NCBI GenBank assembly: GCA_017404505.1
Contig: JAFRCE010000004.1
Span: forward strand, 62,001 to 126,000
Direction: 5' to 3'
DNA length: 64,000 nucleotides
Source: Solobacterium sp.
GTDB lineage: Bacteria; Bacillota_I; Bacilli_A; Erysipelotrichales; Erysipelotrichaceae
Of the stretch, positions 1,561 to 19,079 are shown in pieces. Position 1 is the first letter of the stretch; each line of letters begins with the position of its first letter. The notes below the pieces were generated by a model, which saw only the letters and a list, made by a program, of their open reading frames with translations, did not search any database and had not been told where the DNA came from. The translations under genes and the position numbers were made by a program.

Positions 1561-2498
1561 CATTCTTTACTGTCGCTTTGACACCAGTCGGGTATGATCC
1601 TGCGGAATTCTTCTTCCGCATGCTCCTGCATGATGCTTTCAAACTGACGGAAGGATTCGAGCAGCTGTTTGCCTCGTTCCGTCAGTTCGCTGCTGCTGCC
1701 GCTGAGACCGCCAACATTGCGCTTGATCAGTTCACACTGGGTCTGCAGTTCAATGTCACGGATCAGATTCCAGCCTTTTGTATACGATATCTGCATGGTC
1801 TTGCAGGCTTTCGATACGGAGCCGAGGTCACCGACCAGACTGAGCAGAAGAGCGATGCGGGAATCAAAGAACACCTTTTCCTTGGCAAAGGAAACATTGA
1901 GCAGGGGACGGATCATGGAACGGCTGTGCTGCTGTAGCAATTCCGTGTTTTTATAGACGTCGGCGTATTCAAGCAGGATGCCGCTGTCATCCACGTCGAC
2001 CGTCACCGGCTGGATGCCGTATTCGGCAAACGCTCCGGCCAGACCGCCTTCGCTCCGATAATCAATGATCCGGGATGCGAGACGGCTGGAAAGGATGATC
2101 GGATGTCCGGGCTTGCCGCCATAGGCAGGACGGATATAGTCACCTTCTTCATCCAGCAGGGTGCGGATCGTTTTCGCCGTGAAGAAGGGAATGTCACAGG
2201 GACTCAGAAGGATCCTGTCACATTTGCTGAGAAGATAGCTGATGCCGATGCGGTAACTGTCGATCATCTCGCTGCGGGCATAATTAAGATTGCGGAAAAA
2301 CATCACATCATAACGGGCGAGCTGATGTTCCAGCTCATCCGCTTTGTAGCCGGTGACGACAGCGATCTGAACAATGCCGGCATGGCGCAGCGTTGCGATG
2401 GTGCGTTCGGCAAGGGTGATCGTTCCCAGTGTCTGCAGCGGCTCAAATTCCGTGTTCTGACCGGCCGCGGCGATGACTGCTCCGATTCTCTGCTTCAT
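1560..2498 (-). CDS. MocA-like nucleotidyltransferase domain fused to a ModE-type DNA-binding domain
   Basis: 312 residues. Residues 1 to about 195 have the MobA/MocA fold pattern: IGAVIAAAG, VVTGYKADE, SPCDIPFF (the metal-binding D-x-P) and GKPGHPIILSS. The loop after AAAG, which in active enzymes reads G-x-S-x-R-M-G-x-x-K, is GQNTEFEPLQ here, so the Arg and Lys that hold the NTP are missing. Residues from about 205 onward match the ModE/LysR-like winged helix (GDLGSVSKACKTMQISYTKG, then GGLSGSSSELTERGKQLLE). I infer a molybdenum- or cofactor-sensing transcription regulator in which a dead transferase domain is the sensor. The start is supported by AGAGG upstream. A nested inverted repeat sits in its leader. 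Confidence 0.78.
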   Translation of the reverse strand: MKQRIGAVIAAAGQNTEFEPLQTLGTITLAERTIATLRHAGIVQIAVVTGYKADELEHQLARYDVMFFRNLNYARSEMIDSYRIGISYLLSKCDRILLSPCDIPFFTAKTIRTLLDEEGDYIRPAYGGKPGHPIILSSRLASRIIDYRSEGGLAGAFAEYGIQPVTVDVDDSGILLEYADVYKNTELLQQHSRSMIRPLLNVSFAKEKVFFDSRIALLLSLVGDLGSVSKACKTMQISYTKGWNLIRDIELQTQCELIKRNVGGLSGSSSELTERGKQLLESFRQFESIMQEHAEEEFRRIIPDWCQSDSKE

Positions 2499-2971: not shown

Positions 2972-5719
2972 ATGATTAAGAAGACATTTATCATCAACGG
3001 TGTCGAACGCAAGATCTTCCTGGAAGGCGACGAAACTCTCTCGACCGTCCTGCGTGAAAGACTTCTGCTGACCGGCACCAAGATCGGCTGCGGCGCCGGA
3101 CACTGCGGCGCATGTAACGTCATCATGAACGGCCGTATCGTCAAATCATGTCTGCAGAAGGCAGTCAAGGTTCCTGATTTCACCGAGATCACGACAATTG
3201 AAGGCATCGGTACCGTCAGCAACCTGCATCCGCTGCAGCTCGCCTGGATGGCATTCGGCTGTGCTCAGTGCGGCTTCTGCAGCCCGGGCTTTATCGTAAG
3301 CGCCAAGGTGCTGCTGGATCAGAATCCGAATCCGACCCGCGAAGAAGTACGCGACTGGTTCAACAAGAGCCGCAACCTGTGCCGCTGCACCGGCTACAAA
3401 CCGCTGGTTGACGCGACCATGGCAGCAGCTGCTGTTCTGCGCGGCGAGATGAAGAAAGAAGATCTCGTTTATCAGGCTAACGGCAAGTCCATCGTAGGTA
3501 CGGAATATGTCCGTCCGTCCGCAGCCATGAAGGTTACCGGTACATGGGACTTCGGTGCTGACGATGCTCTGCGCATGCCGGAAGACACACTGCGTCTGGC
3601 CCTCGTACAGGCAGAAGTATCCCATGCGAATCTGAAGGGTGTCGACACATCCGAAGCAGAGAAGATGCCGGGTGTCTACAAGGTCATCACAGCCAAGGAC
3701 GTTCCGGGCTCCAACCGCATCAACGGTCTGGTCATGCTGCCGCTGAATAATAAGTGCGACGGCTTCGACCGCCCGATCCTCTGCGACGAAAAGATTTTCC
3801 AGTATGGTGATGCGATCGCTATCGTAGCTGCCGATACAGAAGAACACGCCAAGGCTGCCGCAAAGGCTGTCAAGGTCGATCTGGAAGAACTGCCGGCCTA
3901 CATGAGCGCGCCGGAAGCTCTGGCAGCGGATGCCATCGAGATCCATCCGGGCACACCGAACGAATACTATGAAACCAACGCCATCAAGGGCGATGACTTT
4001 GACTGGGATGCATGGCCGGCAGAGCAGCAGGTCGAAATCGAAAGCTACTGCTCACGTCAGCCGCACCTGTTCATCGAACCTGACAACGGCTATGCATACA
4101 TCGATGAAGACGGCATGCTGACGATTCACTCCAAGTCGATCGGTATCCATCTGCATATGCCGATGATCGCCGATGGTATCGGTATCCCGATGGAGAAGCT
4201 CCGTATGGTTCAGAACCACACCGGCGGAACCTTCGGCTACAAGTTCTCTCCGACCAACGAAGCACTGCTGGGCGTCGCCGCTCTGGTATGCCAGCGTCCG
4301 GTTTCCCTGAACTTCAACATGTATCAGTCCATTACCTACACAGGCAAGAGATCACCGGGCTTCATGCACATCAAACTCGCCGCTGACAAAGACGGCAAAC
4401 TCAAGGCTCTGTGGGGACGCAACTATATCGACCACGGTCCGTACTCCGAATTCGGTGACCTGCTGACACATCGTCTGTCTCAGTTCGTCGGTGCCGGTCT
4501 TGATATTCCGAGCATCCGCAACAAGTCGACGACAGTCTTCACGAACCATGCCTGGGGTTCCGCATTCCGTGCTTACGGTTCACCGCAGTCCTTCATGGGC
4601 TCTGACATCGCGATCGACGTACTGGCTGACAAGATGGGCATCGATCCGTTCGAGATGAGAGCGATGAACTGCTATAAGGAAGGTGCCGGATCCACGACAC
4701 CGACCGGCTGCAAACCGGATGTATACTGTGAAGAAGACCTCTTCGACAAGGCAAGACCGTACTATGAAGCAGCCAAGAAGCGTGTTGCGGAAAAGAACGC
4801 CGCAAGCGACGGCAGAATCAAGTATGGTGTCGGCGTATCACTCGGTGTATACGGCTGCGGTCTGGATAACTCCGACGCTTCCGAATGCTATGCTGACCTG
4901 AACCCGGATGGAACAGTCACACTGAGAAACTCCTGGGAAGACCATGGCCAGGGTGCTGATATCGCCACACTGACAGCAGGTCACGAGACACTGCGTCAGG
5001 CCGGCTTCACTCCGGATATGATCAAACTCGAACTCTGCGACTCCAAGGTTACTCCTAACTCCGGCCCGGCCGGCGGCTCCCGTTCGACTGTCATGACCGG
5101 TTCGGCTACCAGAATCGCCTGCGAAAACCTGCTGAAGGCAATGCGCAAGGAAGACGGCACATACCGTACCTATCAGGAAATGGTTGACGAAGGAATCGAC
5201 ACACATGTCACCGGCGTCTACACCTATACAGCAAGCGTTGCTCTTGATCAGGCAACCAGCCAGGGCGATCCGTTCCCGGCATACATGTACACGATCTTCC
5301 TTCCGGAAGTCGCTGTCGATACCGAGACCGGTAAAGTCAAGGTTGAGAAATTCACGGCTGTCGCTGACTGCGGTACCATCCTGAACAAACTGGCTGTAGA
5401 CGGCAACTTCTATGGCGGTCTGGTACAGGGTATCGGTCTGGCTCTGAGCGAAGACTTCGAAGACCTCAGCAAGCACACCAGCCTGCTGAAGTGCGGAATC
5501 CCGTATCCGAACGACGCACCGGATGACATCGAACTGGTATTCCAGGAGAACCATCCGCGTCCGAACGGCCCGTACGGCGCTTCCGGCTGTGGTGAAGCAC
5601 CGCTCGATGCTCCGCATCCGGCGATCCTCAATGCGATCTTCAATGCGACCGGTGCGAGAATCACACGTATCCCGGCCCGTCCGGAGAACGTGCTCGAAGC
5701 ACTGCGTGAAGTAAAATAA
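2972..5719 (+). CDS. Molybdenum-dependent aldehyde oxidoreductase (Mop-like, xanthine oxidase family)
   Basis: 915 residues from the ATG placed 9 bases after AAAGGAGGAG. An in-frame ATG at 2933 has no such site. Ferredoxin-like [2Fe-2S] ligands C40, C45, C48, C60 come first, and the helical [2Fe-2S] domain has C100, C103, C137, C139. The large molybdenum domains follow, with GGTFGYKFSPTNEAL, YTGKRSPGF, AWGSAFRAYGSPQS, GPAGGSRSTVMTG and the catalytic Glu at about 875 in GASGCGEAPL. The single-chain layout without an FAD domain and the length match Desulfovibrio gigas Mop (907 residues), which oxidises aldehydes to acids using molybdopterin cytosine dinucleotide. The true substrate is unknown and other hydroxylations (purines, aromatics) remain possible. 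Electrons probably pass to the protein encoded next. Confidence 0.9.
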   Translation: MIKKTFIINGVERKIFLEGDETLSTVLRERLLLTGTKIGCGAGHCGACNVIMNGRIVKSCLQKAVKVPDFTEITTIEGIGTVSNLHPLQLAWMAFGCAQCGFCSPGFIVSAKVLLDQNPNPTREEVRDWFNKSRNLCRCTGYKPLVDATMAAAAVLRGEMKKEDLVYQANGKSIVGTEYVRPSAAMKVTGTWDFGADDALRMPEDTLRLALVQAEVSHANLKGVDTSEAEKMPGVYKVITAKDVPGSNRINGLVMLPLNNKCDGFDRPILCDEKIFQYGDAIAIVAADTEEHAKAAAKAVKVDLEELPAYMSAPEALAADAIEIHPGTPNEYYETNAIKGDDFDWDAWPAEQQVEIESYCSRQPHLFIEPDNGYAYIDEDGMLTIHSKSIGIHLHMPMIADGIGIPMEKLRMVQNHTGGTFGYKFSPTNEALLGVAALVCQRPVSLNFNMYQSITYTGKRSPGFMHIKLAADKDGKLKALWGRNYIDHGPYSEFGDLLTHRLSQFVGAGLDIPSIRNKSTTVFTNHAWGSAFRAYGSPQSFMGSDIAIDVLADKMGIDPFEMRAMNCYKEGAGSTTPTGCKPDVYCEEDLFDKARPYYEAAKKRVAEKNAASDGRIKYGVGVSLGVYGCGLDNSDASECYADLNPDGTVTLRNSWEDHGQGADIATLTAGHETLRQAGFTPDMIKLELCDSKVTPNSGPAGGSRSTVMTGSATRIACENLLKAMRKEDGTYRTYQEMVDEGIDTHVTGVYTYTASVALDQATSQGDPFPAYMYTIFLPEVAVDTETGKVKVEKFTAVADCGTILNKLAVDGNFYGGLVQGIGLALSEDFEDLSKHTSLLKCGIPYPNDAPDDIELVFQENHPRPNGPYGASGCGEAPLDAPHPAILNAIFNATGARITRIPARPENVLEALREVK

Positions 5720-5743
5720 ACTGCAATAACAGCAGAAACGGAA

Positions 5744-5780
5744 AGAATGGGCGCAGTGTGCGCCCATTCTTCTTCATTTT
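5744..5780 (+). terminator. Intrinsic terminator after the oxidoreductase gene
   Basis: 12-bp perfect stem AGAATGGGCGCA / TGCGCCCATTCT with a 3-base loop, then TCTTCATTTT. It lies between the oxidoreductase and its likely redox partner, so it may make the first transcript more abundant than the rest. Confidence 0.75.
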
Positions 5781-5801: not shown

Positions 5802-8078
5802 ATGACGGACCATTTTAAAGAACGTTCCACCCGGGACTATCATCAGAAACAGCTGTTTTCAAAAGAGGATCTGGAAAGAAGGGAAAGCCTGTGCACCCAT
5901 GAGGATCCTCCTTTCTGCAATGCCGCGTGCCCGCTGAAACTGGATGTCAAAGCGATGCTGGCGGCTGTCTCGGACGGTGATTTTGCCAAAGGCCGCAGTC
6001 TGATGGAATTCATTTCACCGTTTCCTGAGATCCTGGCCTGGGGGTGCGACGCGCCATGCCGCAAAGTATGCCGGCGCAGTGAAATCGAGGAGAGCGTGAA
6101 TATCCCGGCCATCGAACGAGCGATCATGCAGCACAGCATGGTGCCGAAAGCGAAGGGACTTTTGAAACTGCGCAAGAAGCAGCGTCTTGCGGTCTTTGGC
6201 AGCAGTCTGTTCACGCTGGCACTCGCAGCTGACATGGCCGCGAAAAAATATCCGGTCACCCTGTATACCGAAGCGGAAGATGAAATGGATCTGATGCGCC
6301 GCTGTGCCGATCTGCCGGATGAGATCCTCCAGCGGCAGCTGCCGCTTCTCAGAAAGGCGGACCTGAAGATCTGTTACAGTACCATAGTTGACAGAGCTTT
6401 TCTGGAAAACGAAGAAAAGAATTACGATCTGGTCTGCGGCGCGGAATATCTGAAAACCGATGAAGTCGATCCTGTCACGCTGTGTGATGACGGAAACCGA
6501 GTTTTTCCGCATGCCGAAAAGAAGTATTCTCCCATTCTGCAGTCGTTCTTTGACGCCCGCCGGGCAGCCGTCTCGCTGGAAAGGATCATTCAGCGTATCG
6601 ATCCGCACAAGAGCCGTCCGCAGGAAGGGGAAACAGAATCCCATCTGTTTACGAATCTGACCTATATTCCAAGTGAGGAAGCTGTCATTGAAAACGGTGT
6701 TTACAGCCGCGAAGAAGCCATCCGGGAAGCCACCCGCTGCATCCAGTGCGAATGCGTGGAGTGTTTCCGGGGCTGTGCCTATCTGCGGGCATTCAAACGT
6801 TATCCGCGGCTGCTGACCAGAGAGATTTATAACAATACCGGCATTATCATGGGCGACCACATGATGAACAAGGCATTGAATTCCTGTTCGCTGTGCGGCC
6901 AGTGTACCGTGACATGTCCGAACGGCTACGACATGGCGGATATCTGCCGGGCGGCCAGGGAGAACATGGTCGATACCAGAAAGATGAGTCTCGCCGTGCA
7001 TGAATTCGCATTGCTGGACATGCTGTTTTCAAATAACGAAGGCTATCTGGCAAGAAAACAGCCGGGTCATGAAACCTGCCGCTATGTGTACTTTCCGGGC
7101 TGTCAGGCCAACGGCATCGCTCCGGATACGGTATATGAAACCTACCGTGATCTGATGAACAGAAAAGAAGGCGGCGTCGCCCTGATGCTTGGCTGCTGCA
7201 GTGTGATCGCCAAATGGGCAGGCAGACGGGAACTGTATGAAGAGCAGATATCGTTCCTGAAGGAAGAAATGCATAAACTGGGCGACCCGATCATCATCGC
7301 CGGCTGTCCGACCTGCCGCAGCACCCTCCGTGAGCATTTCCCGGAAGTCATCGGACTCTGGGACGTGCTGGAAGAAATCGGTCTGCCGGCCGGACACGAA
7401 ACTCTGACGAATGAAGTCATGATCCACGATGCCTGCAGCGCCCGTAATGATGCCGCGACCCAGGATGCGATCCGGCGTATCGTTTCATCGCTCGGCGGCA
7501 CAGTGAAGGAAGGAACCTGGTCGAAGGAACGTACAGCCTGCTGCGGCTATGGCGGTCTGGTATCCTACGTCAACCGGGAAATCGCCAGTCAGATGAGTGA
7601 AGAATGCGTCAAAGAAGATCCGGATGCGACCTATGTCACATACTGCATGGCCTGCCGGGACAGACTGAAGCGGCAGGGCACCGATGCCGTGCATTTCAGC
7701 GAACTGGTCTACGGCATCAGCGCGGACGATTCACCGGGTCTTTCGCAAAAACGGAAGAACCGCAAGCAGCTGAAAGAAAAACTTCTGAAGGAAGACTGGA
7801 AGGAAGAAACCATGGAAGAAAAACCGGCGTTCACATATGAACTCAGTGAAGAAGTGCGGCAGAAGATGGAAGACAGAATGATCCTGGAAAGCGATCTTCT
7901 GGAAACCATCCAGGCTTATCGGGATACGCAGATGGCGGTTTACAACGAAGCGGATGAAACCCTGACAACGCAGCACCGTATCGGCAATGTTTCTTTCTGG
8001 GTCAGATTTCAGGAAGAGGAAAATCATTATAAGATCCTGAGTGTTTACAGCCACCGTATGACGGTCAGAACCAGATAG
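5802..8078 (+). CDS. Multi-cluster iron-sulfur protein with CCG (heterodisulfide-reductase-like) domains
   Basis: 758 residues. The N terminus (about 25-110) resembles the Fe-S domain of glutamate synthase beta/DPYD-type proteins (CNAACPLKLD, CDAPCRKVCRR). The next stretch (LAVFGSSLFTLALAADM, about 128-145) sits where the FAD GxGPAG loop belongs but lacks it. A pair of 4Fe-4S motifs follows at C313 (CIQCECVECFRGC) and C362 (CSLCGQCTVTCP), then two CCG domains (YFPGCQANG near 430, CPTC near 503, CCGYGG near 580, CMACRDRL near 615) and a 90-residue tail of unknown fold. I recall the annotation 'pyridine nucleotide-disulfide oxidoreductase/dicluster-binding protein' for homologues next to Mop. 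I infer that it takes electrons from the oxidoreductase. Without the FAD loop, direct NAD(P) reduction by this chain is doubtful. Confidence 0.8.
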   Translation: MTDHFKERSTRDYHQKQLFSKEDLERRESLCTHEDPPFCNAACPLKLDVKAMLAAVSDGDFAKGRSLMEFISPFPEILAWGCDAPCRKVCRRSEIEESVNIPAIERAIMQHSMVPKAKGLLKLRKKQRLAVFGSSLFTLALAADMAAKKYPVTLYTEAEDEMDLMRRCADLPDEILQRQLPLLRKADLKICYSTIVDRAFLENEEKNYDLVCGAEYLKTDEVDPVTLCDDGNRVFPHAEKKYSPILQSFFDARRAAVSLERIIQRIDPHKSRPQEGETESHLFTNLTYIPSEEAVIENGVYSREEAIREATRCIQCECVECFRGCAYLRAFKRYPRLLTREIYNNTGIIMGDHMMNKALNSCSLCGQCTVTCPNGYDMADICRAARENMVDTRKMSLAVHEFALLDMLFSNNEGYLARKQPGHETCRYVYFPGCQANGIAPDTVYETYRDLMNRKEGGVALMLGCCSVIAKWAGRRELYEEQISFLKEEMHKLGDPIIIAGCPTCRSTLREHFPEVIGLWDVLEEIGLPAGHETLTNEVMIHDACSARNDAATQDAIRRIVSSLGGTVKEGTWSKERTACCGYGGLVSYVNREIASQMSEECVKEDPDATYVTYCMACRDRLKRQGTDAVHFSELVYGISADDSPGLSQKRKNRKQLKEKLLKEDWKEETMEEKPAFTYELSEEVRQKMEDRMILESDLLETIQAYRDTQMAVYNEADETLTTQHRIGNVSFWVRFQEEENHYKILSVYSHRMTVRTR

Positions 8079-8087: not shown

Positions 8088-8309
8088 ATGCCAAACGAAA
8101 AGACATATTATTCCCTGGAAGCCGGACAGAATCTTGTCTGCCATAAGTGCGGCGTGCATCTGATCAAGGGCAATGCCGTATTTGAATATCTGGACAACGC
8201 TTTTCCGGTGGAACTGCCGGTCTGTCCGCAGTGCGGTTTTGTCTATGTGCCGGAAGAACTGGCCATGGGCCGGGTCCTTTCCGTGGAAAAGGTACTGGAG
8301 GACAAATGA
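8088..8309 (+). CDS. Small zinc-ribbon/redox protein (DVU_1557-like)
   Basis: 73 residues with two CxxC pairs: VCHKCGVHL at about 18-21 and VCPQCGFVYVPEEL at about 47-50. This is a rubredoxin or zinc-ribbon arrangement. I recall the family as the DVU_1557 redox protein found beside aldehyde oxidoreductases. The start follows AGGAGGGTATC, 9 bases after the previous stop, and its stop overlaps the next start as ATGA. It could carry electrons or act as a metal/sulfur handling partner. The sequence does not decide. Confidence 0.75.
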   Translation: MPNEKTYYSLEAGQNLVCHKCGVHLIKGNAVFEYLDNAFPVELPVCPQCGFVYVPEELAMGRVLSVEKVLEDK

Positions 8310-8851
8310 GCGGGGCAGTCCGCCATCCCGGCGGCATTGAAATGACAGAATATCTGCTCGATCTTGCCGGCATTCATAAACCATGTCAGGGCAGAGCGGC
8401 GGATCTTGGCGCCGGGGAAGGCAATACCGTCCGGCTGCTCTGTGAATACGGCTTCGACGCAGTCGGCATCGACCTGGAACCGGCGGATAACGTCATGTCC
8501 GGTGACATGCTGAAACTGCCGTTTGCGGACGGGAATTTTGATCTCGTCATCAGCGAATGCGCGATGTTTCAGACCGGAAAACAGATGGAAGCCGTTCAGG
8601 AAGCGCTGCGCATCCTGAAGAAAGACGGAATCCTGCTGATTGCCGATCTGTTTCCCTGCCGCCGCGAAGAACTGCGGGATATCCTGCAGGAATACGGAGC
8701 GGAACTGCTGTTTCTGAAAGATCATACTTCCTTCTGGAAAGACTATATTATCGAACGTCTCTGGAATGACGAATACATCAGTGAAATCTGCCGGCTGGCG
8801 GATCAGAAATGCCGTTATTATCTGGCCGGCATGAAAGGAAAAGCATCATGA
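8306..8851 (+). CDS. trsM: Class I SAM-dependent methyltransferase (DVU_1556 / TrsM-like)
   Basis: 181 residues starting at the ATG inside the ATGA overlap with the preceding gene. An upstream in-frame start at 8231 would lie within that gene and is rejected. SAM-binding motif I is AADLGAGEGNTVRLL, motif II is GIDLEP, and the acidic loop GDMLKLPFADGNFDLVIS is typical of type-11 methyltransferases. The N-terminal RHPGG motif is a hallmark I associate with this subfamily. The substrate is unknown. Translational coupling to the redox protein before it and the C_GCAxxG_C_C protein after it argues for a common pathway. The symbol follows a database family name as I remember it. Confidence 0.8.
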   Translation: MSGAVRHPGGIEMTEYLLDLAGIHKPCQGRAADLGAGEGNTVRLLCEYGFDAVGIDLEPADNVMSGDMLKLPFADGNFDLVISECAMFQTGKQMEAVQEALRILKKDGILLIADLFPCRREELRDILQEYGAELLFLKDHTSFWKDYIIERLWNDEYISEICRLADQKCRYYLAGMKGKAS

Positions 8852-9294
8852 GTGAAAAGAAAGTTGAATTCGACGAACTGGAAAAGATCTTCGACTACTA
8901 CCATGACGGCTACCAGTGTGCCCAGGTGCTTCTTCTGTATGCCCTGGAAGCGCAGGAAATCGAAAATCCCGACCTGATCCGGGCCATGGGCGGCCTGAAC
9001 CGCGGCATGAGCAATTACCGTTCCATCTGCGGCTGCCTGAGCGGCGGCCTGTGCCTGCTGTCCTACTTTGCCAATAAAGGATCGGCGGACGAAACCGCCC
9101 ATCCTGACTATGACGAGATGGCTGCCGAACTGTATGACTGGTTCCTGCAGGACAACGAAGACACCGGCGGCAGTCCGATGTGCATGGACCTGTTGGAAAA
9201 CGATCTTTCCCAGCGGGCAAGAGTCTGTCCGCTTCTGATCAGCCGAACCTTTCAGAAATGTCTTGAAATACTGGAAAGAAAAGGTCTGGTGTAA
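8848..9294 (+). CDS. C_GCAxxG_C_C family protein (DVU_1555-like)
   Basis: 148 residues beginning at the ATG of another ATGA overlap. The conserved pattern is visible: a Cys in GYQCAQVLL (about 25), MGGLNRGM, ICGCLSGGLCLLS (about 66-77), and later Cys in SPMCMDLL and RVCPLL. Proteins of this family are thought to be redox-active or to bind metal clusters through these Cys, and many have signal-like Cys spacing suited to Fe-S binding. The exact role is not known. Its stop overlaps the start of the radical SAM gene by one base. Confidence 0.8.
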   Translation: MSEKKVEFDELEKIFDYYHDGYQCAQVLLLYALEAQEIENPDLIRAMGGLNRGMSNYRSICGCLSGGLCLLSYFANKGSADETAHPDYDEMAAELYDWFLQDNEDTGGSPMCMDLLENDLSQRARVCPLLISRTFQKCLEILERKGLV

Positions 9295-10649
9295 TGTCAG
9301 TACGGCTGTATCCCGCCGAGAGCGTCTGCCCGGTGTGTCTGAGAAAAATAAAAGCAGCGATAACCGTCGGAAACGACGGCTTTATCCATATGGAGAAGTC
9401 GTGTCCGGAACATGGCTTTTTTGACACGCTGATCTGGGAAGGGAATGTGATTTCCTATCTCTCCTGGAGCGATGACGATGTCGAAGGGAACGCGCCGAAA
9501 ACAGCCATTCCTGCCGAAAAAGGATGCCCGCATGACTGCGGTCTCTGCACCGGCCATCAGAGTGAAGGCTGCTGCGTCCTGCTGGAACTGACCAGCCGGT
9601 GCAATCTGCGCTGTCCGGTCTGCTTTGCCTCAGCCGGGGAAGGAACGGATCTGCCGCTGGCCGAAATCGTCCGGCATTATGACTGGCTGATGGCGCATGG
9701 CGGACCATATAACATTCAGCTGTCCGGTGGGGAGCCGACGATGCGGGAAGACCTTGACGAAATCATCCGGCTTGGCATAGAACGCGGTTTTACCTATTTC
9801 CAGCTCAATACCAACGGTCTGCGGATCGCCGAAGAAGAAAACTACGCCCGCCGTCTGAAGGAAATGGGTGTTTCCTGTGTCTTCCTGCAGTTCGACGGCT
9901 GCCGGGACGGGATATACACCGCGCTGCGCGGAAGAGAACTCTTTGAAATCAAATGCCGGGCAATTGACGCCTGCGCAAAAACCGATCTGCCGGTCGTTCT
10001 CGTGCCGGTCATCGCACCAGGCATCAACGAAGATGACATCGGTGAAATCATTCAGTTCGCTCTGCGGCGCCATCCGCACGTCCGCGGTGTCCATTTTCAG
10101 CCGCTCAGCTATTTCGGCCGCTGTGAAGTGCCGGCCAGAGAACTGACAGAGAAATGCTGTGCGGATGATCAGACCCAATGGCGCATTACGATTCCGCGTA
10201 TGCTGAAGAAAATCGAAGAACAGACGGACGGTCTTTTCAAGGCTTCTGACTTCCATGGCGGCGGTGCCGAAAGTCCCTACTGCTCGTTTCATGCCGCGGC
10301 CCGCGTACAGCCGGACGGCCGTCTGAAAATACTGAAAAAGCGCACCCGGTCCTGCTGCTGCCCACAGCCGAGCAGCGAAGCGATGAACTTCGTCTCGCAG
10401 CAATGGGGCAACGAAGATCCGTCCTTCCCGGACGCGGAAGGCGACGTTTCTTCACTTGATCTGTTCCTGAAACAGGCCATCAACGATACCTTCACGGTTT
10501 CCGGCATGCTGTTCCAGGATGCCTGGAATCTTGATCTGAGCCGGCTGCGCCGCTGCTATATCTGCGAAGCGGACAGCGAGAGGGGAATGGTGCCGTTCTG
10601 CGCCTACAATCTAACGGATACAAACGGAAAGGCTTTATACAGGAAATGA
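9294..10649 (+). CDS. trsS: Radical SAM enzyme (TrsS-like, cysteine form)
   Basis: 451 residues. The radical SAM cluster motif is CNLRCPVC (C103, C107, C110), followed by LSGGEPTMRED. The N-terminal region carries its own Cys set (C12, C15, C37, CPHDCGLC at 78-85), similar to the radical SAM branch that includes archaeal MJ0619 and lipid-modifying enzymes. The C-terminal part has SPYCSFHAAARVQPDG and RSCCCPQPS, likely auxiliary cluster or substrate-side cysteines. Homologues near aldehyde oxidoreductases are named TrsS and in some species are selenoproteins. No in-frame TGA occurs here, so this is a Cys version. The start overlaps the previous stop (TAATG). Confidence 0.82.
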   Translation: MSVRLYPAESVCPVCLRKIKAAITVGNDGFIHMEKSCPEHGFFDTLIWEGNVISYLSWSDDDVEGNAPKTAIPAEKGCPHDCGLCTGHQSEGCCVLLELTSRCNLRCPVCFASAGEGTDLPLAEIVRHYDWLMAHGGPYNIQLSGGEPTMREDLDEIIRLGIERGFTYFQLNTNGLRIAEEENYARRLKEMGVSCVFLQFDGCRDGIYTALRGRELFEIKCRAIDACAKTDLPVVLVPVIAPGINEDDIGEIIQFALRRHPHVRGVHFQPLSYFGRCEVPARELTEKCCADDQTQWRITIPRMLKKIEEQTDGLFKASDFHGGGAESPYCSFHAAARVQPDGRLKILKKRTRSCCCPQPSSEAMNFVSQQWGNEDPSFPDAEGDVSSLDLFLKQAINDTFTVSGMLFQDAWNLDLSRLRRCYICEADSERGMVPFCAYNLTDTNGKALYRK

Positions 10650-11863
10650 AAAAATCACGTCTGGATGATCTGATCCGGAAGCAGGAAAACCTTTCGGAAC
10701 TGAACCGGAACATCCTCGAAGAAATCCAACTGAAAAAACTGAATGCCCTGCTGCAAAAAGAAAAGGAGCGGCAGGGTTTTTACGCATCCCTTCCGGCTTT
10801 TCTGACATCGCTGAAGGAACTGTCCTCTCTGCCTTTTACGACGGCCGATGATCTGCGGCGGTATTATCCGCAGCTCTTCCTTGGCTCTTCCTCCGGGGTG
10901 GAAAAAGTCCTGACGGAAAAAACCAGCGGCACGACCGGCGCGGCCAAACGCATTTTTTACAGCAAAGATGACCTTGCCCACACCATATCGTTTTTCGCGG
11001 CCGGCATCGGCGAAATGACACAGCCGGGTGATAAAGTGATGATCGGCATGCCGTATACCGGTCCCGGCAGTCTGGGTGACCTGATTGCATGCGGCGTACG
11101 GGAATGCGGAGGGCAGCCGGTGCAGCTTTGCGGGGAAAGCCTTTATGATCAGTGCCGGCACTATCACCAGGTACAGCCATCCTGTGCGATCGATCTGCCG
11201 GTGGCACTGCTCGCCAAAGCCCGTTATTATGAATATCTTTACGGCCGCGGCAGTTTTCCGCTCAGGGCGGCGCTGCCTTCGGCGGATGCCTGCTGCAAAG
11301 CGGTGGAGAAAGCCTTGCGGGAAGAATTCGGTCTGTCGCTGTTTCCCCACTACGGCAGCCGGGAAATGTGCATGGGCGGCGCCATCACCTGTCCGGCTCA
11401 CACGGGAATGCATCTTCGGGAACATCAGGTGATTGGTGAAATCGTCGATGAAAACGGTCATGTTCTTCCCGATGGTGAATGGGGCGAACTGGTGATCACG
11501 ACAGTTGACATGCAGGTTCTGCCGCTGATCCGCTTCCGGACCGGCGATCATACCCGTTTCATGAAGGAACCATGTCCCTGCGGCAGTGTGACAAGAAGAC
11601 TGGATCAGATCAGACGGATCGGAAAAGACGCGGAAACACTGGCATGCATCGAAAACGCGTTTTTCTCTCTGCACAGCGTTCTTGATCTTTCCCTTACGGA
11701 AAGAAACGGGCAATATCAGCTGGAGCTGCTGCTCACCGACGAGGCGGAAGCAGACGCGATCCAAAAGACGGCAGACGCGCAGAATCTCATATATGACATC
11801 CGGATCATAAAAACCGATGACAAACTGCTGTATTCAGGCAAAAGGTTCATTCATCATCTGTGA
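10646..11863 (+). CDS. PaaK-like adenylate-forming enzyme (DVU_1553-like CoA ligase family)
   Basis: 405 residues, coupled by ATGA to the radical SAM gene. The P-loop of adenylate-forming enzymes is TEKTSGTTGAAKRIFYS. Other family signs are HYGSREMCMGG, GEWGELVITT and LIRFRTGDHTRF (the core with the Asp that binds the ribose), and a Cys-rich PCPCGSVTRRLDQIRRIGKD as in phenylacetate-CoA ligases. It would activate a carboxylic acid as acyl-AMP and perhaps join it to CoA. The acid made by the aldehyde oxidoreductase is a tempting but unproven substrate. It is the last gene of the coupled cassette, and a promoter for the molybdate transporter starts at its end. Confidence 0.78.
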   Translation: MKKSRLDDLIRKQENLSELNRNILEEIQLKKLNALLQKEKERQGFYASLPAFLTSLKELSSLPFTTADDLRRYYPQLFLGSSSGVEKVLTEKTSGTTGAAKRIFYSKDDLAHTISFFAAGIGEMTQPGDKVMIGMPYTGPGSLGDLIACGVRECGGQPVQLCGESLYDQCRHYHQVQPSCAIDLPVALLAKARYYEYLYGRGSFPLRAALPSADACCKAVEKALREEFGLSLFPHYGSREMCMGGAITCPAHTGMHLREHQVIGEIVDENGHVLPDGEWGELVITTVDMQVLPLIRFRTGDHTRFMKEPCPCGSVTRRLDQIRRIGKDAETLACIENAFFSLHSVLDLSLTERNGQYQLELLLTDEAEADAIQKTADAQNLIYDIRIIKTDDKLLYSGKRFIHHL

Positions 11864-11925: not shown

Positions 11926-12780
11926 ATGAAGAAGATTTTTGCATTCCTGTCTGCTTTTGCAATGGTCATTGCACTGGCAGGATGCGGATCGTCTGCCGCC
12001 TCTGAGGGATCCGGCAGCGCGTCCGCATCACCGACTGACGAGCAGGTCGAACTGATCGTTTTTGCGGCTGCTTCCATGACGGAAACACTGGAAGAGATCC
12101 AGAAGACGTACGAAGCTGAAAATCCTAATGTCAGACTTATTTTCACCTTCGATTCTTCCGGTACTCTGAAAACCCAGATCGCTGAAGCAGCACCGTGTGA
12201 TGTTTTCATTTCGGCCGCACCCAAACAGATGAACCAGCTGGACATTACCCAGGACGAAGAAAAGAATCCTGACAGACTGGACTTCATCGATCCGGACACA
12301 CGTATCAATCTGCTGGAAAACAAAGTCGCTCTGGTCGTGCCCAGCAATAATCCGCTGGATATCAAAAACTTTGACGATCTTGCTGAAAAACTGAAGAACG
12401 AACAGATTCTGATGGCGATGGGCAACAGTGACGTTCCGGTCGGACAGTATACCCAGAAGATCCTGGCCTATTACGAACTCAATGAGGAAGAACTTGCCAA
12501 TGCCGGCAAGATCACCTATGGAACGAACGTCAAGGACGTTGTCGAACAGGTTAAAAACGAATCCGTGCAGGCCGGTGTCGTATACGCGACGGATGCCGCT
12601 TCCGGCGGACTGACAGTCATCGATACCGCCAAAAAGGAAATGTGCGGCCAGGTCATCTATCCGGCAGCGGTTCTCAAAGAGAGCGCTCACCCGGAAGAAG
12701 CCAAAGCATTCTTGGCATATCTGCAGAGTGACGCGGCGATGAAAGTATTTGAAGGTGTAGGCTTCTCGAAAGCTGAATAA
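11926..12780 (+). CDS. modA: Molybdate ABC transporter, substrate-binding lipoprotein
   Basis: 284 residues. A signal peptide ends in the lipobox LAGC (Cys at about 20), followed by a Ser/Ala-rich linker, so the protein is a lipid-anchored surface receptor. ModA signatures are LIVFAAASMTETLEEI, FDSSGTLKTQI and APCDVFISA in the N-terminal lobe, then ALVVPSNNP and GNSDVPVGQYTQKIL. It captures molybdate (or tungstate) for the metal cofactor of the nearby oxidoreductase. The ribosome site is GAGGAAAGG 8 to 15 bases before the ATG. It is followed at 12 bases by modB. Confidence 0.92.
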   Translation: MKKIFAFLSAFAMVIALAGCGSSAASEGSGSASASPTDEQVELIVFAAASMTETLEEIQKTYEAENPNVRLIFTFDSSGTLKTQIAEAAPCDVFISAAPKQMNQLDITQDEEKNPDRLDFIDPDTRINLLENKVALVVPSNNPLDIKNFDDLAEKLKNEQILMAMGNSDVPVGQYTQKILAYYELNEEELANAGKITYGTNVKDVVEQVKNESVQAGVVYATDAASGGLTVIDTAKKEMCGQVIYPAAVLKESAHPEEAKAFLAYLQSDAAMKVFEGVGFSKAE

Positions 12781-12792
12781 GGAGTAAACAGC

Positions 12793-13446
12793 ATGGACTG
12801 GTACCCATTGTGGAACTCATTGCGTATCGCTGCGATCAGCTGTGTGATCGTGTTCTTTTTGGGTATCTTCCTTGCCCAGAAAGTCGCCCGTCTGCCGGGT
12901 GTGATCAAAGGTATCTGTGACGTGATCCTGACGCTGCCGATGGTATTGCCGCCGACGGTATGCGGATATTTCCTGCTGCTGATCTTCGGTGTAAGAAGAC
13001 CGCTCGGCAGCCTGCTGGCCAGATACGGAATCACTTTCGTCATGACCTGGCAGGGCGGCATCCTGGCATCGGTTCTGGTCGCTTTCCCGCTGATGTACCG
13101 GACCGCACGCGGTGCCTTTGAAAGTTACAACAAGGATCTGACATCCGCCGGCCGGACACTTGGCCTGTCGGATCTGTACATATTCTGGCGCATCCAGATG
13201 CCGGCCTGCAAACAGGGAATCATCGCCGGCATCGTTCTCGCCTTTGCCAGAGCGCTCGGTGAATACGGTGCCACCAGCATGCTGATCGGATATACACCGG
13301 GAAGAACCGCGACGATTTCAACCACGGTCTATCAGATGTGGCGGACCGGCAACGACGTCCTGGCTTTCAAATGGGTCATGGTCAATGTGGCTATTTCAGC
13401 AGTCGTTCTGCTGACGGTCAACATGCTGGAGAAGAAGAACAGGTAG
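12793..13446 (+). CDS. modB: Molybdate ABC transporter permease
   Basis: 217 residues with about five membrane helices. The permease loop that contacts the ATPase reads EYGATSMLIGYTPGRT, close to the EAA-type motif of ModB, preceded by LAFARALG. ILTLPMVLPPTVCGYFLL is the characteristic second helix of molybdate permeases. It works with modA before and modC after it. It ends in TAG, which shows that amber is used as a real stop codon in this genome. Confidence 0.92.
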   Translation: MDWYPLWNSLRIAAISCVIVFFLGIFLAQKVARLPGVIKGICDVILTLPMVLPPTVCGYFLLLIFGVRRPLGSLLARYGITFVMTWQGGILASVLVAFPLMYRTARGAFESYNKDLTSAGRTLGLSDLYIFWRIQMPACKQGIIAGIVLAFARALGEYGATSMLIGYTPGRTATISTTVYQMWRTGNDVLAFKWVMVNVAISAVVLLTVNMLEKKNR

Positions 13447-13453
13447 GGAAACG

Positions 13454-14512
13454 ATGAGTCTGACGGTAAGGATACGTAAAAAACTGTCGCATTTCACACT
13501 GGCTGCCGACTTTTCGGCTGCCGATCATTTCACCTGTCTGCTCGGCGCTTCCGGCAGCGGTAAAAGCATGCTGCTGAAGTGCATCGCCGGTCTGGAAACA
13601 CCGGACGAGGGATACATCGAACTGAATGGCAGAGTGCTGTACGACTCGGAAAAAAAGACTGATATCCGGCCGCAGAACCGCAGTGTCGGCTATCTGTTTC
13701 AGAATTATGCCCTGTTTCCCAATATGACCGTAAAGGAGAACATCCTCATCAGCCGGTACAAAGACAGAAACCTTCCGGAAGTGCAAGACCGCCTCAAGGA
13801 ACTGATTTCTCTGCTGCAGCTGGAAGGGTATGAAGACAAGTATCCGAACCGGATCTCCGGCGGCCAGCAGCAGCGTACGGCCCTGGCCAGGATCATGATG
13901 AGCGATCCGGAAATACTTCTTCTGGACGAACCGTTTGCGGCCCTGGATGCCAATCTGCGGGAAAAACTGCAGATGGAAATGAAGGATCTGCTAAAGGAAT
14001 ACGGACAGCAGGTGATCATGGTAACCCATGACCGCGACGAAGCCTACCGGATGTCCGATGCGGCAGGGGTGCTGGAAGATGGAAGGCTGATCATATGCAA
14101 GCCGACCAGGGAACTGTTCGCCGATCCGGAAACAGTCAGTGCCGCCCGCATGATCGGCTGCAAGAACATTGTCCCCATACAGATGCTTTCTCAACATGAA
14201 CTCGCCATTCCAAAATGGGGTATACAGATACGGCTGAAGCAGCTGGTTCCTGAGAAAACGACACACATCGGTATCAAAGCCCACCATTTCGGAAACAAGA
14301 AAGATTACACATTTCCTGTCTGTTACTGCGGCGGCATGGAGGATACGTTCGAACATATCATCCGCTTCCGCTTTCACAAACAGGAAGCCGGCAGTGCGGA
14401 TATCTGGTGGAAGCTTCCATACGCACTGACCCCCGATACACTGCCGGACAGAATCGGTTTTAATGAAAAAGATATATTGCTGCTGCATCAGGAGGTAGGA
14501 GAAACATGTTAA
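13454..14512 (+). CDS. modC: Molybdate ABC transporter ATP-binding protein
   Basis: 352 residues. Walker A is GASGSGKSMLLKCIAGL, the ABC signature is RISGGQQQRTALAR, and Walker B is EILLLDEPFAALD with the H-loop in VTHDRDEAYRMS. The C-terminal ~115 residues are where ModC proteins carry a TOBE-type regulatory domain that binds oxyanion. The gene overlaps the following tandem-TOBE protein by seven bases. Confidence 0.9.
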   Translation: MSLTVRIRKKLSHFTLAADFSAADHFTCLLGASGSGKSMLLKCIAGLETPDEGYIELNGRVLYDSEKKTDIRPQNRSVGYLFQNYALFPNMTVKENILISRYKDRNLPEVQDRLKELISLLQLEGYEDKYPNRISGGQQQRTALARIMMSDPEILLLDEPFAALDANLREKLQMEMKDLLKEYGQQVIMVTHDRDEAYRMSDAAGVLEDGRLIICKPTRELFADPETVSAARMIGCKNIVPIQMLSQHELAIPKWGIQIRLKQLVPEKTTHIGIKAHHFGNKKDYTFPVCYCGGMEDTFEHIIRFRFHKQEAGSADIWWKLPYALTPDTLPDRIGFNEKDILLLHQEVGETC

Positions 14513-14919
14513 GCGCAAGAAATAAAATCCGTGGTATCGTCAGCGAAGTCAGATGTGAAGGCGTCATGGGTATCGTCAAAGTCGAAGCCGGTGACGAAAA
14601 GATCACTGCCACGATTTCTGCCGAATCCGTCCGTGATCTGAAACTCAGGGCCGGATCCAAAGTCGTTGCTGTCATTAAGGCTACCGAGGTGATGATGGCA
14701 AATGACAAACTCGTCATGAGTGCCCGCAATCAGTTCCGGGGAACCGTCAGATCCCTTGAGAAAGATGCGCTTATGGCAATCGTGAAACTGGATGTAACAG
14801 GGGATATCGGTCTCACAGCTCTGATTTCATCTGAAGCAGCCGACCAGCTCGGCCTGGCCGTCGGAAAAGAAGCAGTTGCTGTCGTCAAGGCAACGTCTGT
14901 CATGATCGCGGCCGACTGA
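14506..14919 (+). CDS. Tandem TOBE molybdate/molybdopterin-binding protein
   Basis: 137 residues made of two TOBE repeats of about 68 residues: SARNKIRGIVSEV ... VVAVIKATEVMMA and SARNQFRGTVRSL ... AVAVVKATSVMIA. Paired TOBE domains form the small molybdate-storage proteins (molbindins, Clostridium Mop). It probably buffers cytoplasmic molybdate between uptake and insertion. The start lies inside the modC end, with GGAGGTAGG just upstream. Confidence 0.88.
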   Translation: MLSARNKIRGIVSEVRCEGVMGIVKVEAGDEKITATISAESVRDLKLRAGSKVVAVIKATEVMMANDKLVMSARNQFRGTVRSLEKDALMAIVKLDVTGDIGLTALISSEAADQLGLAVGKEAVAVVKATSVMIAAD

Positions 14920-15014: not shown

Positions 15015-15040
15015 AGAAGTAATGGTATGAGGTTTTGATA

Positions 15041-15511
15041 ATGGAATTCACACATTTTGATGCGGAAGGAAACGCCCGGATGGTCGATGTCAGTGAAAAG
15101 GAAACCAGCGGACGCACTGCCGTTGCGCAGGGTACGATCCGTGTTTCCGAAGAAGTGATGGAGGCTGTGCTGGGACAGAAAGTCAAAAAGGGAGATGTTT
15201 TTACGGTGGCTCAGATTGCCGGTATCAGCGGTGCCAAGCGGACATCCGATCTGATTCCGCTCTGCCATAATATCGCTCTGACCAATGCCGAAGTGACGTT
15301 TGAGACAGATCCCGGCCTGGGCATCATTACCGTATACTGTACTGCCAAAACACGTTCCCGGACGGGCGTTGAAATGGAAGCTCTGACCGGTGTCTGCACA
15401 GCTTTGCTGACGGTCTATGACATGTGCAAGGCAATCGACAAGCGCATGGTCATCGAGGATATCCATCTGCTGAAAAAAACCGGCGGGAAAAGCGGCGAGT
15501 TTACTTTCTGA
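15041..15511 (+). CDS. moaC: Cyclic pyranopterin monophosphate synthase
   Basis: 156 residues. It converts the MoaA product (3',8-cyclo-GTP) to cyclic pyranopterin monophosphate, the second step of molybdopterin synthesis. Signature blocks are MVDVSEKETSGRTAVA, AGISGAKRTSDLIPLCHNI (catalytic KRT and LCH) and TGVEMEALTGVCTALLTVYDMCKA. The ATG at 15041 has GAGG eight bases upstream, and a TTG six bases earlier is the only in-frame alternative. Confidence 0.95.
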   Translation: MEFTHFDAEGNARMVDVSEKETSGRTAVAQGTIRVSEEVMEAVLGQKVKKGDVFTVAQIAGISGAKRTSDLIPLCHNIALTNAEVTFETDPGLGIITVYCTAKTRSRTGVEMEALTGVCTALLTVYDMCKAIDKRMVIEDIHLLKKTGGKSGEFTF

Positions 15512-15522
15512 ACGGAGTGACA

Positions 15523-16977
15523 ATGAAAAAAGAGAAGATCGGGGTGCTGATTGCAGCAGCCGGTATGTCAAAAAGAATGGGGGAACCGAAACAGCTGAAA
15601 AAGATCGGAGCCTATACTTTTCTGCAGCACATTGTCCGCCGTTTTCAGGCTGCTGAACCGGACGAGATCGTTGTGGTGACCGGCTATAAGGCGGAAGAAA
15701 CAAGAGAATCTCTTAACGGTTATCCTGTGACGTTTCTGCATAATCCCGATTATGAAAACACCCAGATGTTTGACTCTGTGGCGATCGGCCTGAAGTATCT
15801 GCTGGACCGCTGTGACCGGATCTTTTTCACACCGGTCGACGTGCCGTTTTTTGAAACCGATACGCTTTTTCTGGAAATGGCATATTCAGAAGATGCCGTT
15901 CTTCCCATATGCAGCGGCCGGATCGGCCATCCGATCTTACTGCGATCCGCCATCATTCCTTTCCTTCTCGCATGTGACAGCAGGCGCGGTCTGAAGGGAG
16001 CCCTGGACGAACTACGCAAAGATCAGATCCGCTATCTGCCCATCAATGACAAAGGCAGTGCCTATGACGCCGACACGCCGGACGACGCCGCAAAACTGCA
16101 GAAAATGATCGAGGAAAAAGATCACCGGCGGGCGGCTGTATTCGGAGCCGGTCAGGCTGGTGAAATGGTGGCGGACTGGCTGCCGGCGGAAACGGAAGTC
16201 GTCTGCTATCTGGACAATGATCAGAACAAAGCCGGAACATATCTGAATGGTATTCCGGTATGCCGACCGGACGAAATACCGGAAGAAATCACACTCGTGT
16301 ATCTTGCGGCTGTTTCAAAAGAAAGACAGAAACAGCAGAATCTGCAGCTGCGCCGTCTCGGCTATCGGGGCAGAGTCATACCGCTGTCTTCCCTGAAAGA
16401 ACACTTTGACCTGCGGCTGGCTGCTTTGCGGCAGTGCGCGAAGATGATCAGCGAAAGAAACATTGCCGGTGACTGTGCCGAACTGGGTGTGTTCCGCGGT
16501 GCTTTCGCGGCCCAGATCAGCCGCTGTTTTGAGAACCGCCATCTGTATCTGTTTGATACCTTTGCCGGTTTTGACGAGAACGATTTACAGCAGGAGACGG
16601 AAGTCCTGCAGAAATATCCTGATTTTACGAAAACCAGCATGGAACTGGTGCTTGCCGGCCTGCATCAGCCGGAAAGGGCCAGACTCATCAAAGGCCATTT
16701 TCCCGACAGTCTGAAAGACGTTCCGGATGACAGCCGCTACTGTTTTGTTTCCCTGGACTGCGACCTGGAAGTGCCGACGTATGAAGGACTTGTCTGGTTC
16801 TGGCCGCGGCTTGTCAAAGGCGGCATGATTCTGATCAACGACTATCACAGCCGTCAGTTCCCGGGTGTGAAGAAGGCGTGCGACCGTTACTGCGCGGAAC
16901 ATGACCTGTATCTGCTGCCGCTTTCCGATATCCACGGCAGTGTGATCCTGCTGAAACAGGGTGATGGAAATGACTGA
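15523..16977 (+). CDS. Three-domain protein: MocA-like transferase, Rossmann-like middle, TylF-type methyltransferase
   Basis: 484 residues from the ATG after AACGGAGTGACA. Residues 1-195 are an intact MocA-type nucleotidyltransferase (AAAGMSKRMGEPKQL, VVTGYKAEE, TPVDVPFF, GRIGHPILL) that would attach CMP to molybdopterin. Residues about 200-300 form a Rossmann-like segment (RAAVFGAGQAGEMVADW, YLDNDQNKAG, IPVCRPDEIP). Residues about 310-480 match TylF/MycF macrocin O-methyltransferases (GDCAELGVFRGAFAAQI, YLFDTFAGFDEND, VSLDCDLEVPTYEGLVWFW, ILINDYHSRQFPGVKKA). The arrangement is unusual for cofactor synthesis. I relate it to the 'DVU_1551 family NTP transferase', whose phosphatase and HD parts are here encoded by the next gene. 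Confidence 0.78.
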   Translation: MKKEKIGVLIAAAGMSKRMGEPKQLKKIGAYTFLQHIVRRFQAAEPDEIVVVTGYKAEETRESLNGYPVTFLHNPDYENTQMFDSVAIGLKYLLDRCDRIFFTPVDVPFFETDTLFLEMAYSEDAVLPICSGRIGHPILLRSAIIPFLLACDSRRGLKGALDELRKDQIRYLPINDKGSAYDADTPDDAAKLQKMIEEKDHRRAAVFGAGQAGEMVADWLPAETEVVCYLDNDQNKAGTYLNGIPVCRPDEIPEEITLVYLAAVSKERQKQQNLQLRRLGYRGRVIPLSSLKEHFDLRLAALRQCAKMISERNIAGDCAELGVFRGAFAAQISRCFENRHLYLFDTFAGFDENDLQQETEVLQKYPDFTKTSMELVLAGLHQPERARLIKGHFPDSLKDVPDDSRYCFVSLDCDLEVPTYEGLVWFWPRLVKGGMILINDYHSRQFPGVKKACDRYCAEHDLYLLPLSDIHGSVILLKQGDGND

Positions 16978-18043
16978 CATCTATCTGCTCAGACATGCGG
17001 AAACCGATGCGGGGAAAGGTCTCTGCATCGGCCGCAGGGAAACCCGGCTGAGTGAAAAAGGAAAAAAGAGAACGGCTGCTCTGGCCGGCTGGCTGAAGGA
17101 GAACCTGTCGGATGTTACGGCAGTATACACTTCGCCGCTGCAGAGGGCTGAAACGACGGCCGGTATCATTGCCCAGGCGTATGGACTTACGCCGGTATAC
17201 GACGAAGGTCTGATGGAGATCGATACCGGTGTATGGGACGGTCTCTCCTTCGCGGAAATCAAAGAACAGTATCCGGAAGAATATGAAAAGCGCGGCGCAG
17301 ATCCCTGGCATTACCGCATCGAAAACGGCGAGACGTTTGAGGAAGTGGCGCGGCGTGTGAACGATGACGTACTGCGCATCGCCGCGGGTGAAAAAACAGC
17401 CTTGATCGTGACCCACAAAGGGGCCATCAACGCACTGCGGATCCATCTGCATCAGGCAGAAGAAAACGAAATTCTGAATCTTGCCTGCGCCAATCTGTCA
17501 ATTCTGCCGCTGCGTATCAGAGACGGAATCCTTTCTGCCGTTTCGGAACCATACCGGCCGGAGGTCCTGCTGGACGATGAAATGATCCGGGAGCTTTGGC
17601 GGAAACATCAGACACCCGAACATGTTATACGGCATATGGCCGCGGTTGCCGCGTATGCGCTGCAGAGCATTGCCGGAACAAAAGGTATTTTCCATGCCGA
17701 AAGGATACGCAAGGCGGCTCTGCTGCATGATCTTGACCGTCTGCAGCCGCATCACGCCGCTGTCTGTGCCGAGTCTTTGCGCAGGGAGGGATTTTGGGAA
17801 ATCGCCGCCATGATCGCTGTGCATCACCGGGAGGAATACGATCCTGACGCCGATCTGACCGACGCCGATATTCTCTGGTATGCCGATAAATGCGTGCTGG
17901 AAGACAGGATCGTCGGCATTGAAGAGCGCTTTGCTGCCAGCCGGAAGAAATGCAAAAGTGAAGAAGCATTGATCCACCATCAGCGCCGTTATGAGAAGGC
18001 CGTGTGGATCCGTCATAAACTGGAAGAGGAGAAACAAAGATGA
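16970..18043 (+). CDS. Histidine phosphatase fused to an HD domain
   Basis: 357 residues. The N-terminal half is a phosphoglycerate-mutase-like phosphatase: LLRHAETDAG with the catalytic His, TSPLQRAETTAGI, and a second His in LIVTHKGAINALR. The C-terminal half is an HD hydrolase: HMAAVAAYALQ, AALLHDLDRL (the HD pair), AVHHREEYDPDADL and WYADKCVLEDRI. The start at 16970 is preferred because AGGG lies eight bases before it. In-frame GTG and ATG codons 6-9 bases earlier are possible. It overlaps the preceding gene by eight bases and the next by ATGA. Phosphatase and HD domains together suggest removal of phosphate or nucleotide from a cofactor intermediate (inference). Confidence 0.8.
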   Translation: MTDIYLLRHAETDAGKGLCIGRRETRLSEKGKKRTAALAGWLKENLSDVTAVYTSPLQRAETTAGIIAQAYGLTPVYDEGLMEIDTGVWDGLSFAEIKEQYPEEYEKRGADPWHYRIENGETFEEVARRVNDDVLRIAAGEKTALIVTHKGAINALRIHLHQAEENEILNLACANLSILPLRIRDGILSAVSEPYRPEVLLDDEMIRELWRKHQTPEHVIRHMAAVAAYALQSIAGTKGIFHAERIRKAALLHDLDRLQPHHAAVCAESLRREGFWEIAAMIAVHHREEYDPDADLTDADILWYADKCVLEDRIVGIEERFAASRKKCKSEEALIHHQRRYEKAVWIRHKLEEEKQR

Positions 18044-19068: not shown

Positions 19069-19079
19069 GAGGTTGAATT

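Follow-up and report, generated by a model that had tools for sequence, protein, structure and literature searches.

A stretch of 64,000 nucleotides (nt) from the gut-type bacterium Solobacterium sp. (contig JAFRCE010000004.1, positions 62,001 to 126,000; hereafter the window) exhibits five consecutive genes, encoding a small four-cysteine protein of the DVU_1557 family, a methyltransferase, a C_GCAxxG_C_C protein, the radical SAM enzyme TrsS and an adenylate-forming ligase of the DVU_1553 family. These genes belong to a set that is real, strongly conserved and already catalogued, and functionally unexplained. The core found here consists of an aldehyde oxidoreductase (AOR), an Hdr-like protein with CCG motifs (CCG protein), DVU_1557, TrsS and the ligase. 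We propose, with a probability of about 0.38, that the five genes provide the carrier, and its biosynthesis, in an electron-transfer system that specifically serves the molybdenum AOR encoded upstream. New in this analysis are the co-occurrence test, the corrected core, the kinship of TrsS with the tetraether lipid synthase Tes including its mapped ligands, and an invariant tail of DVU_1557.

A conserved gene set around a molybdenum aldehyde oxidoreductase

The five open reading frames (ORFs) and their four overlapping junctions (ATGA at 8306-8309, ATGA at 8848-8851, TAATG at 9292-9296 and ATGA at 10646-10649), as listed by an earlier sequence-only reading of the window, are all present, and each ORF has support at the family level (Table 1). 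The methyltransferase is shorter than the usual family member and scores below the cut-off of its model (NF045667); as it is in the right syntenic place, only the claim for this one member is lowered. The stop codon of the CCG gene lies 9 nt upstream of the DVU_1557 gene, and the AOR gene precedes the CCG gene. The unit is larger than five genes, as it also contains the upstream AOR and CCG genes, and it lies inside a molybdenum-cofactor island. The closest solved structures to the AOR are 1sij and 1dgj. The CCG protein exhibits two complete HdrB-type cysteine motifs (residues 434-505 and 545-618). The overlaps had been read as a sign of equal and coordinated production. Coupling among the five genes stands, but not equal amounts relative to the AOR. 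A 13-bp hairpin between the AOR and CCG genes would allow a lower output of the cassette than of the AOR.

The order AOR, CCG protein, DVU_1557, methyltransferase, C_GCAxxG_C_C protein, TrsS, ligase is seen again in most of 31 TrsS loci. Other Bacillota exhibit the cassette order in over 25 loci, so that it is not due to chance. Counted over 50-odd loci, CCG protein and DVU_1557 are adjacent 39 times, TrsS and ligase 35 times, and AOR and CCG protein 33 times.

NCBIfam provides a model of its own for every member (NF045645, NF045646 and NF045663-NF045669), with names following the D. vulgaris locus DVU_1551-1557; the CCG protein is called there 'pyridine nucleotide-disulfide oxidoreductase/dicluster-binding protein'. 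The window locus is a member of this set, for which NCBIfam gives names only. Its copy differs by additional downstream genes (modABC, Mop, moaC and MocA-like) and by the low-scoring methyltransferase. In 2017, two of the five families were highlighted along with the AOR and the CCG protein (PMC5640608). The set can thus no longer be called an undescribed system, as had been suggested. According to the same report, C. ljungdahlii possesses two tandem sets of AOR, CCG protein, four-cysteine protein and C_GCAxxG_C_C protein, of which the first is more highly expressed on syngas and/or H2/CO2; the authors called for its study. TrsS appears in the literature only in a list of selenoprotein families (PMC13188914). 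The D. vulgaris AOR is DVU_1559, seen by proteomics (PMC10920352). D. vulgaris fitness data on chlorate were discarded as evidence on this AOR, since the aor gene concerned is DVU1179, a tungsten enzyme. Our literature search found neither a published function for DVU1553-1558 nor a known pathway covering all five families, in agreement with the sequence-only reading.

Co-occurrence across genomes

We examined the distribution of the families in 199 genomes sampled evenly across the phylum that includes Blautia luti, counting TrsS as present at a score of at least 469 bits, and in an independent sample of 196 genomes from the window's own order. TrsS and DVU_1557 occur in the identical 13 of the 199 genomes. 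The probability of this match is 1.2e-20 for independent genomes; as the genomes are related, the value is indicative only. The AOR is present in all 13 (in one as a fragment), and is found in partial form, at contig ends, in two further genomes. The DVU_1553 ligase is present in 12 of the 13, and a score gap separates it from PaaK paralogues (275 versus at most 231 bits). The thirteenth genome (G086) yielded neither a ligase of this class nor a full CCG match; the CCG family is found in all the other TrsS genomes, plus a few genomes elsewhere in the sample. The C_GCAxxG_C_C protein, the most divergent member, reaches model level in 9 of the 13, and more distant relatives are encoded close by in some of the other genomes. 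Within the window's order, the AOR is found in 4 of the 196 genomes and DVU_1557 in exactly these, one of them having two copies of each. The five families had been grouped into one cassette, with independent occurrence named as the observation that would speak against it. Their occurrence is not independent, and the families do belong together. It is the boundary of the cassette that has to be redrawn, as the AOR and the CCG protein belong to it and the methyltransferase is missing from some clusters (e.g. L087).

The association is also found where the genes are unlinked. In two genomes (G005 and G006), TrsS, the AOR and a block of CCG protein, DVU_1557 and ligase occur together although they are spread over separate contigs. 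The parts are similarly unlinked in G004, where the AOR is seen only as contig-end fragments. In G006, DVU_1557 and the ligase form a single ORF of 428 amino acids (aa), a true in-frame fusion as judged by comparison with G004 and G005. Another genome (G150, locus L091) exhibits a half copy consisting of CCG motifs only, followed by its own second copy of DVU_1557. The unlinked co-presence, the fusion and the extra copy make it unlikely that the genes merely hitch-hike within an operon, and they connect DVU_1557 with the CCG domains as well as with the ligase. Isolated copies of TrsS (L022-L024) had raised the possibility that this enzyme acts alone; this was ruled out, the other parts being located elsewhere in the same genomes.

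The DVU_1557 protein and its C-terminus

DVU_1557 exhibits four invariant cysteines in a CxxC-CxxC pattern, and in 39 of 40 loci its gene comes directly after that of the CCG protein. All separately encoded copies end in exactly (L/M)EDK. Identity at the final residues amounts to 91-97% per position (97% for EDK), against at most 47% at the C-terminal positions of the other six proteins. We considered whether this conservation could be a by-product of gene overlap. This was ruled out, as the tail is encoded by differing synonymous codons and, in 19 of 40 distinct copies, no downstream gene overlaps the end. A search for solved structural relatives of DVU_1557 gave no significant match (best E-value = 0.29). 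A C-terminus that is predicted to be disordered yet is invariant points either to a docking peptide or to a site at which a group is attached. The concrete prediction drawn from the gene set concerns these final residues.

TrsS and the ligase

TrsS is related to Tes (GDGT-MAS; MJ0619, structures 7TOL/7TOM). It matches 7TOL with 251 bits, and its structural model aligns with 7TOM at Z = 38.2 (root mean square deviation 2.7, 396 residues, 35% identity), the next fold reaching 19. Its score against the Tes model NF045702 is 308.5 bits, below the cut-off of 450. The two enzymes have in common the fold over the whole length, the mapped ligands of four metal sites and a labile methionine. The ligands of the rubredoxin site (CCCH), the N-cluster (CCCH) and the radical SAM cluster (CCC), together with C421, C436 and the labile methionine, show no variation among 28 close TrsS sequences; for the C-cluster, the mapped ligands are limited to the part covered by the alignment. 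M405 of TrsS corresponds to Met439 of Tes, and is replaced by valine or isoleucine in a few distant TrsS. TrsS is predicted to hold three 4Fe-4S sites and one rubredoxin-like site.

In other respects TrsS differs from Tes. It forms a separate clade (support 100/99), its genes are linked to the AOR instead of lipid genes, and it possesses additional cysteines absent from Tes, Cys93 being constant and Cys94 nearly so. Tyr459 of Tes is also replaced. The change to Glu425 was rejected as a hallmark of TrsS, valine or phenylalanine being found in other TrsS lineages. No in-frame UGA was found in the TrsS matches of the loci at hand, so the selenocysteine position could not be mapped from them. A search for TrsS on plasmids gave only relatives of 29-34% identity. 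In Tes, the substrate radical is stored by bonding its carbon to a sulfur of a cluster, and a lipid carrying sulfur has been trapped (PMC9433317). TrsS would therefore most naturally be expected to act on an unreactive carbon by carbon-sulfur or carbon-carbon chemistry. Bacterial relatives of Tes exist where biphytanyl chains are unknown, and their reactions await investigation (PMC9433317). The present gene set gives one such relative strict genomic partners, namely the AOR, the CCG protein, DVU_1557 and the ligase.

Some further features of TrsS and its relatives were observed. The C-terminal third of TrsS exhibits a variable insert rich in vicinal cysteine pairs (CCC, SCCS) in the window (residues 350-360, about 10341-10373), L038 and L039. 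Locus L111 (G134) contains a TrsS-like gene inside an operon with DMSO (dimethyl sulfoxide)-reductase-type molybdopterin enzymes, NrfD, MoeA, moaC and moaA, and the TrsS-like genes of L112 (G093) and L116 (G052) adjoin a downstream ORF sized like the catalytic subunit of L111. In two Bacillota loci (L113 in G115, L114 in G196), Tes-like radical SAM genes lie beside genes resembling LGT (prolipoprotein diacylglyceryl transferase), which suggests that these enzymes are lipid-acting relatives.

The ligase conserves, over 40 homologues, the motifs SGTTG..KR, HYG..E and RTGD, a CxC pair and a C-terminal KR; the C-terminal domain is otherwise not conserved. From these motifs it looks like a competent adenylate-forming enzyme. 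It belongs to the same PaaK-like adenylate-forming group as coenzyme F390 synthetase and PaaK, from which it is distinguished by the family-specific invariant KR after SGTTG and by a score class of its own. It stays below the cut-offs of the PaaK models NF041878 (108 bits, cut-off 700) and TIGR02155 (94.5 bits, cut-off 646).

A possible carrier system for the aldehyde oxidoreductase

The proposed electron-transfer system builds on the observed genomic linkage, the enzyme classes, the conservation of mapped ligands and motifs, the conserved tail and the pairing of DVU_1557 with the CCG protein. Electrons from the iron-sulfur clusters of the AOR would pass to the Hdr-like CCG protein. The ligase would convert an acid to its adenylate, and TrsS may perform radical chemistry on an unreactive carbon of the activated group, plausibly introducing sulfur through a carbon-sulfur bond by its C-terminal auxiliary cluster, in the manner of the Tes intermediate. 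The methyltransferase and the C_GCAxxG_C_C protein might finish or service the resulting redox group. This group would most likely be attached by acylation to the disordered LEDK tail, making DVU_1557 a redox-group carrier, and the charged protein would act as a mobile redox partner of the CCG domains, like lipoate on LbpA. That a radical SAM enzyme with extra clusters and an adenylate-forming enzyme make up a biosynthesis or modification set, as the sequence-only reading had it, is reasonable, and the idea of coordinated biosynthesis holds. More specific is the possibility of a new type of carrier, lipoate-like and independent of lipoate, in which the PaaK-like ligase acylates the C-terminal lysine of DVU_1557 and TrsS, Tes-like and in some species a selenoprotein, builds a sulfur-containing redox group on this protein, linking a molybdenum hydroxylase to an Hdr-type CCG protein; in this full form it is doubtful. 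The question bears on the electron exit route of molybdenum AORs in anaerobic organisms; C. ljungdahlii, in which members of the set are found, has no known quinone and heme synthesis (PMC5640608).

Two known systems invite comparison. The CCG proteins of the sHdr sulfur-oxidising system are served by LbpA-bound lipoate together with a dedicated lipoate-protein ligase and radical SAM enzymes (PMC6067878, PMC10332631). The cassette would work in a like manner, with its CCG protein, small dedicated protein, dedicated ligase and radical SAM sulfur chemistry (LipS1/S2 in sHdr). It lacks a lipoyl domain and homologues of LplA or LipS, DVU_1557 being a CxxC-CxxC protein (DUF7479) and the ligase a PF00501 enzyme. 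The system is thus analogous to sHdr, not a member of it.

The second is the amino-group carrier protein LysW, a small protein in which a four-cysteine domain is followed by a conserved acidic C-terminal tail serving as attachment point. By description, DVU_1557 has the same layout of four-cysteine domain and conserved C-terminal tail. The tails differ (LEDK versus EDWGE), and there is no ATP-grasp partner equivalent to LysX.

Several points weigh against the carrier proposal. The AlphaFold model of DVU_1557, a small beta-ribbon with a disordered tail, is of low confidence (pLDDT 61). In the G006 fusion the tail reads LEDAKRK and the free C-terminus is gone, so a free terminal carboxylate is not needed there. 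The tail could be a docking peptide rather than an attachment site. ANL-family ligases usually transfer to thiols or coenzyme A (CoA), not to lysine. Lastly, a sister group of TrsS occurs without DVU_1557, between the membrane and catalytic subunits of DMSO-reductase-type molybdoenzymes, and a role in the molybdenum cofactor fits as well for such relatives.

This last point leads to the possibility, which we consider rather unlikely, that TrsS, the ligase and their partners mature the AOR by modifying its polypeptide or its pyranopterin (MCD) cofactor, helped by MocA-like, XdhC-like and cysteine desulfurase proteins. The operon does lie within a molybdenum-cofactor island, XdhC_rel_AOR, an EF2568-type desulfurase and a MocA-like protein are found repeatedly in the clusters, and the co-presence of the AOR persists without linkage. 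Maturation leaves both the acid-activating ligase and the pairing of CCG protein and DVU_1557 without a clear role. The AORs of D. gigas and D. desulfuricans (1sij, 1dgj) match that of the window at about 1140 bits, a comparison whose bearing depends on the presence of the cassette in those strains. Their crystal structures reportedly exhibit an MCD of the ordinary kind and no residue out of the usual, which would speak against maturation. For the Tes family (MJ0619), the assignment to pterin chemistry has been withdrawn (PMC9433317), which also counts against maturation and weakens a candidate role of TrsS as a pterin methylase, based on the HMPTM zinc ribbon of TrsS.

A metabolic pathway is unlikely, in which the ligase would turn the acid made by the AOR into acyl-AMP or acyl-CoA, or run in the opposite direction, and in which this substrate would be made or reworked by TrsS and the methyltransferase. 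AORs yield acids from aldehydes, the ligase is PaaK-like in its match to NF041878, and the increased expression in C. ljungdahlii would suit such a pathway, which leaves unexplained the invariant tail and the strict co-occurrence of DVU_1557 with TrsS; the score gap between the ligase family and PaaK paralogues also speaks against it. It is more improbable still that DVU_1557 is a mere rubredoxin-like electron carrier whose LEDK end serves for docking on the CCG protein, with TrsS and the ligase making a free small redox molecule or something unrelated. This would agree with the four invariant cysteines and the tight pairing with the CCG gene, but the natural fusion of DVU_1557 with the ligase would need a further explanation.

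The molybdenum-cofactor island

The features of the island are listed in Table 1.

Table 1. Features of the AOR operon and the surrounding molybdenum-cofactor island (positions in the window)
Feature	Positions	Strand	Remarks
DVU_1551-like nucleotidyltransferase with ModE domain; border of the molybdenum island	1560..2498	-	
Mo-MCD aldehyde oxidoreductase (AOR)	2972..5719	+	915 aa; NF045668 1499 bits, cut-off 1100
13-bp hairpin between AOR and CCG gene, possible attenuator	5743..5771	+	pattern only
Hdr-like CCG protein: Fer4_20 and partial flavin module, 4Fe-4S dicluster, two CCG motifs	5802..8078	+	NF045663 781 bits, cut-off 530; Pfam Fer4_20, Fer4_17, CCG
DVU_1557 family small protein (CxxC...CxxC, C-terminus LEDK)	8088..8309	+	73 aa; NF045645 90 bits, cut-off 60; DUF7479
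SAM-dependent methyltransferase, DVU_1556-like	8306..8851	+	181 aa; NF045667 105.8 bits, E 2e-30, below cut-off 155; Methyltransf_11
C_GCAxxG_C_C protein, DVU_1555 family	8848..9294	+	148 aa; NF045669 138 bits, cut-off 103
Radical SAM enzyme TrsS, Tes-like	9294..10649	+	451 aa; NF045646 556 bits, cut-off 490
Adenylate-forming enzyme, DVU_1553 family, PaaK-like	10646..11863	+	405 aa; NF045666 305 bits, cut-off 300; PF00501
modA, modB, modC, Mop: molybdate uptake and binding	11926..14919	+	
moaC, then MocA-like nucleotidyltransferase fused to TylF-like domain	15035..16977	+	
Histidine phosphatase with HD domain (DVU_1551 C-terminal part), MoeA-like, XdhC-family AOR maturation factor, moaA, MogA-like	16961..22013	+	

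The usual DVU_1551 protein appears to be split and reshuffled in the window. A MocA-like nucleotidyltransferase is fused there to a TylF-like methyltransferase (15517-16977), and the C-terminal part of DVU_1551 is found instead behind a histidine phosphatase domain (16961-18043). MoeA-like molybdopterin-binding proteins repeatedly adjoin AOR operons (18040-19068 in the window, L009 and L014); the copies of L009 and L014 exhibit a cysteine cluster at their end. DUF5714 proteins related to the metal-binding double selenoprotein MbdU are encoded at the left edge of the island (764-1534, plus strand) and in locus L089 of genome G106 (13220-13954, minus strand), where the gene directly adjoins TrsS. 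The DUF5714 protein is possibly another part of the AOR/TrsS system.

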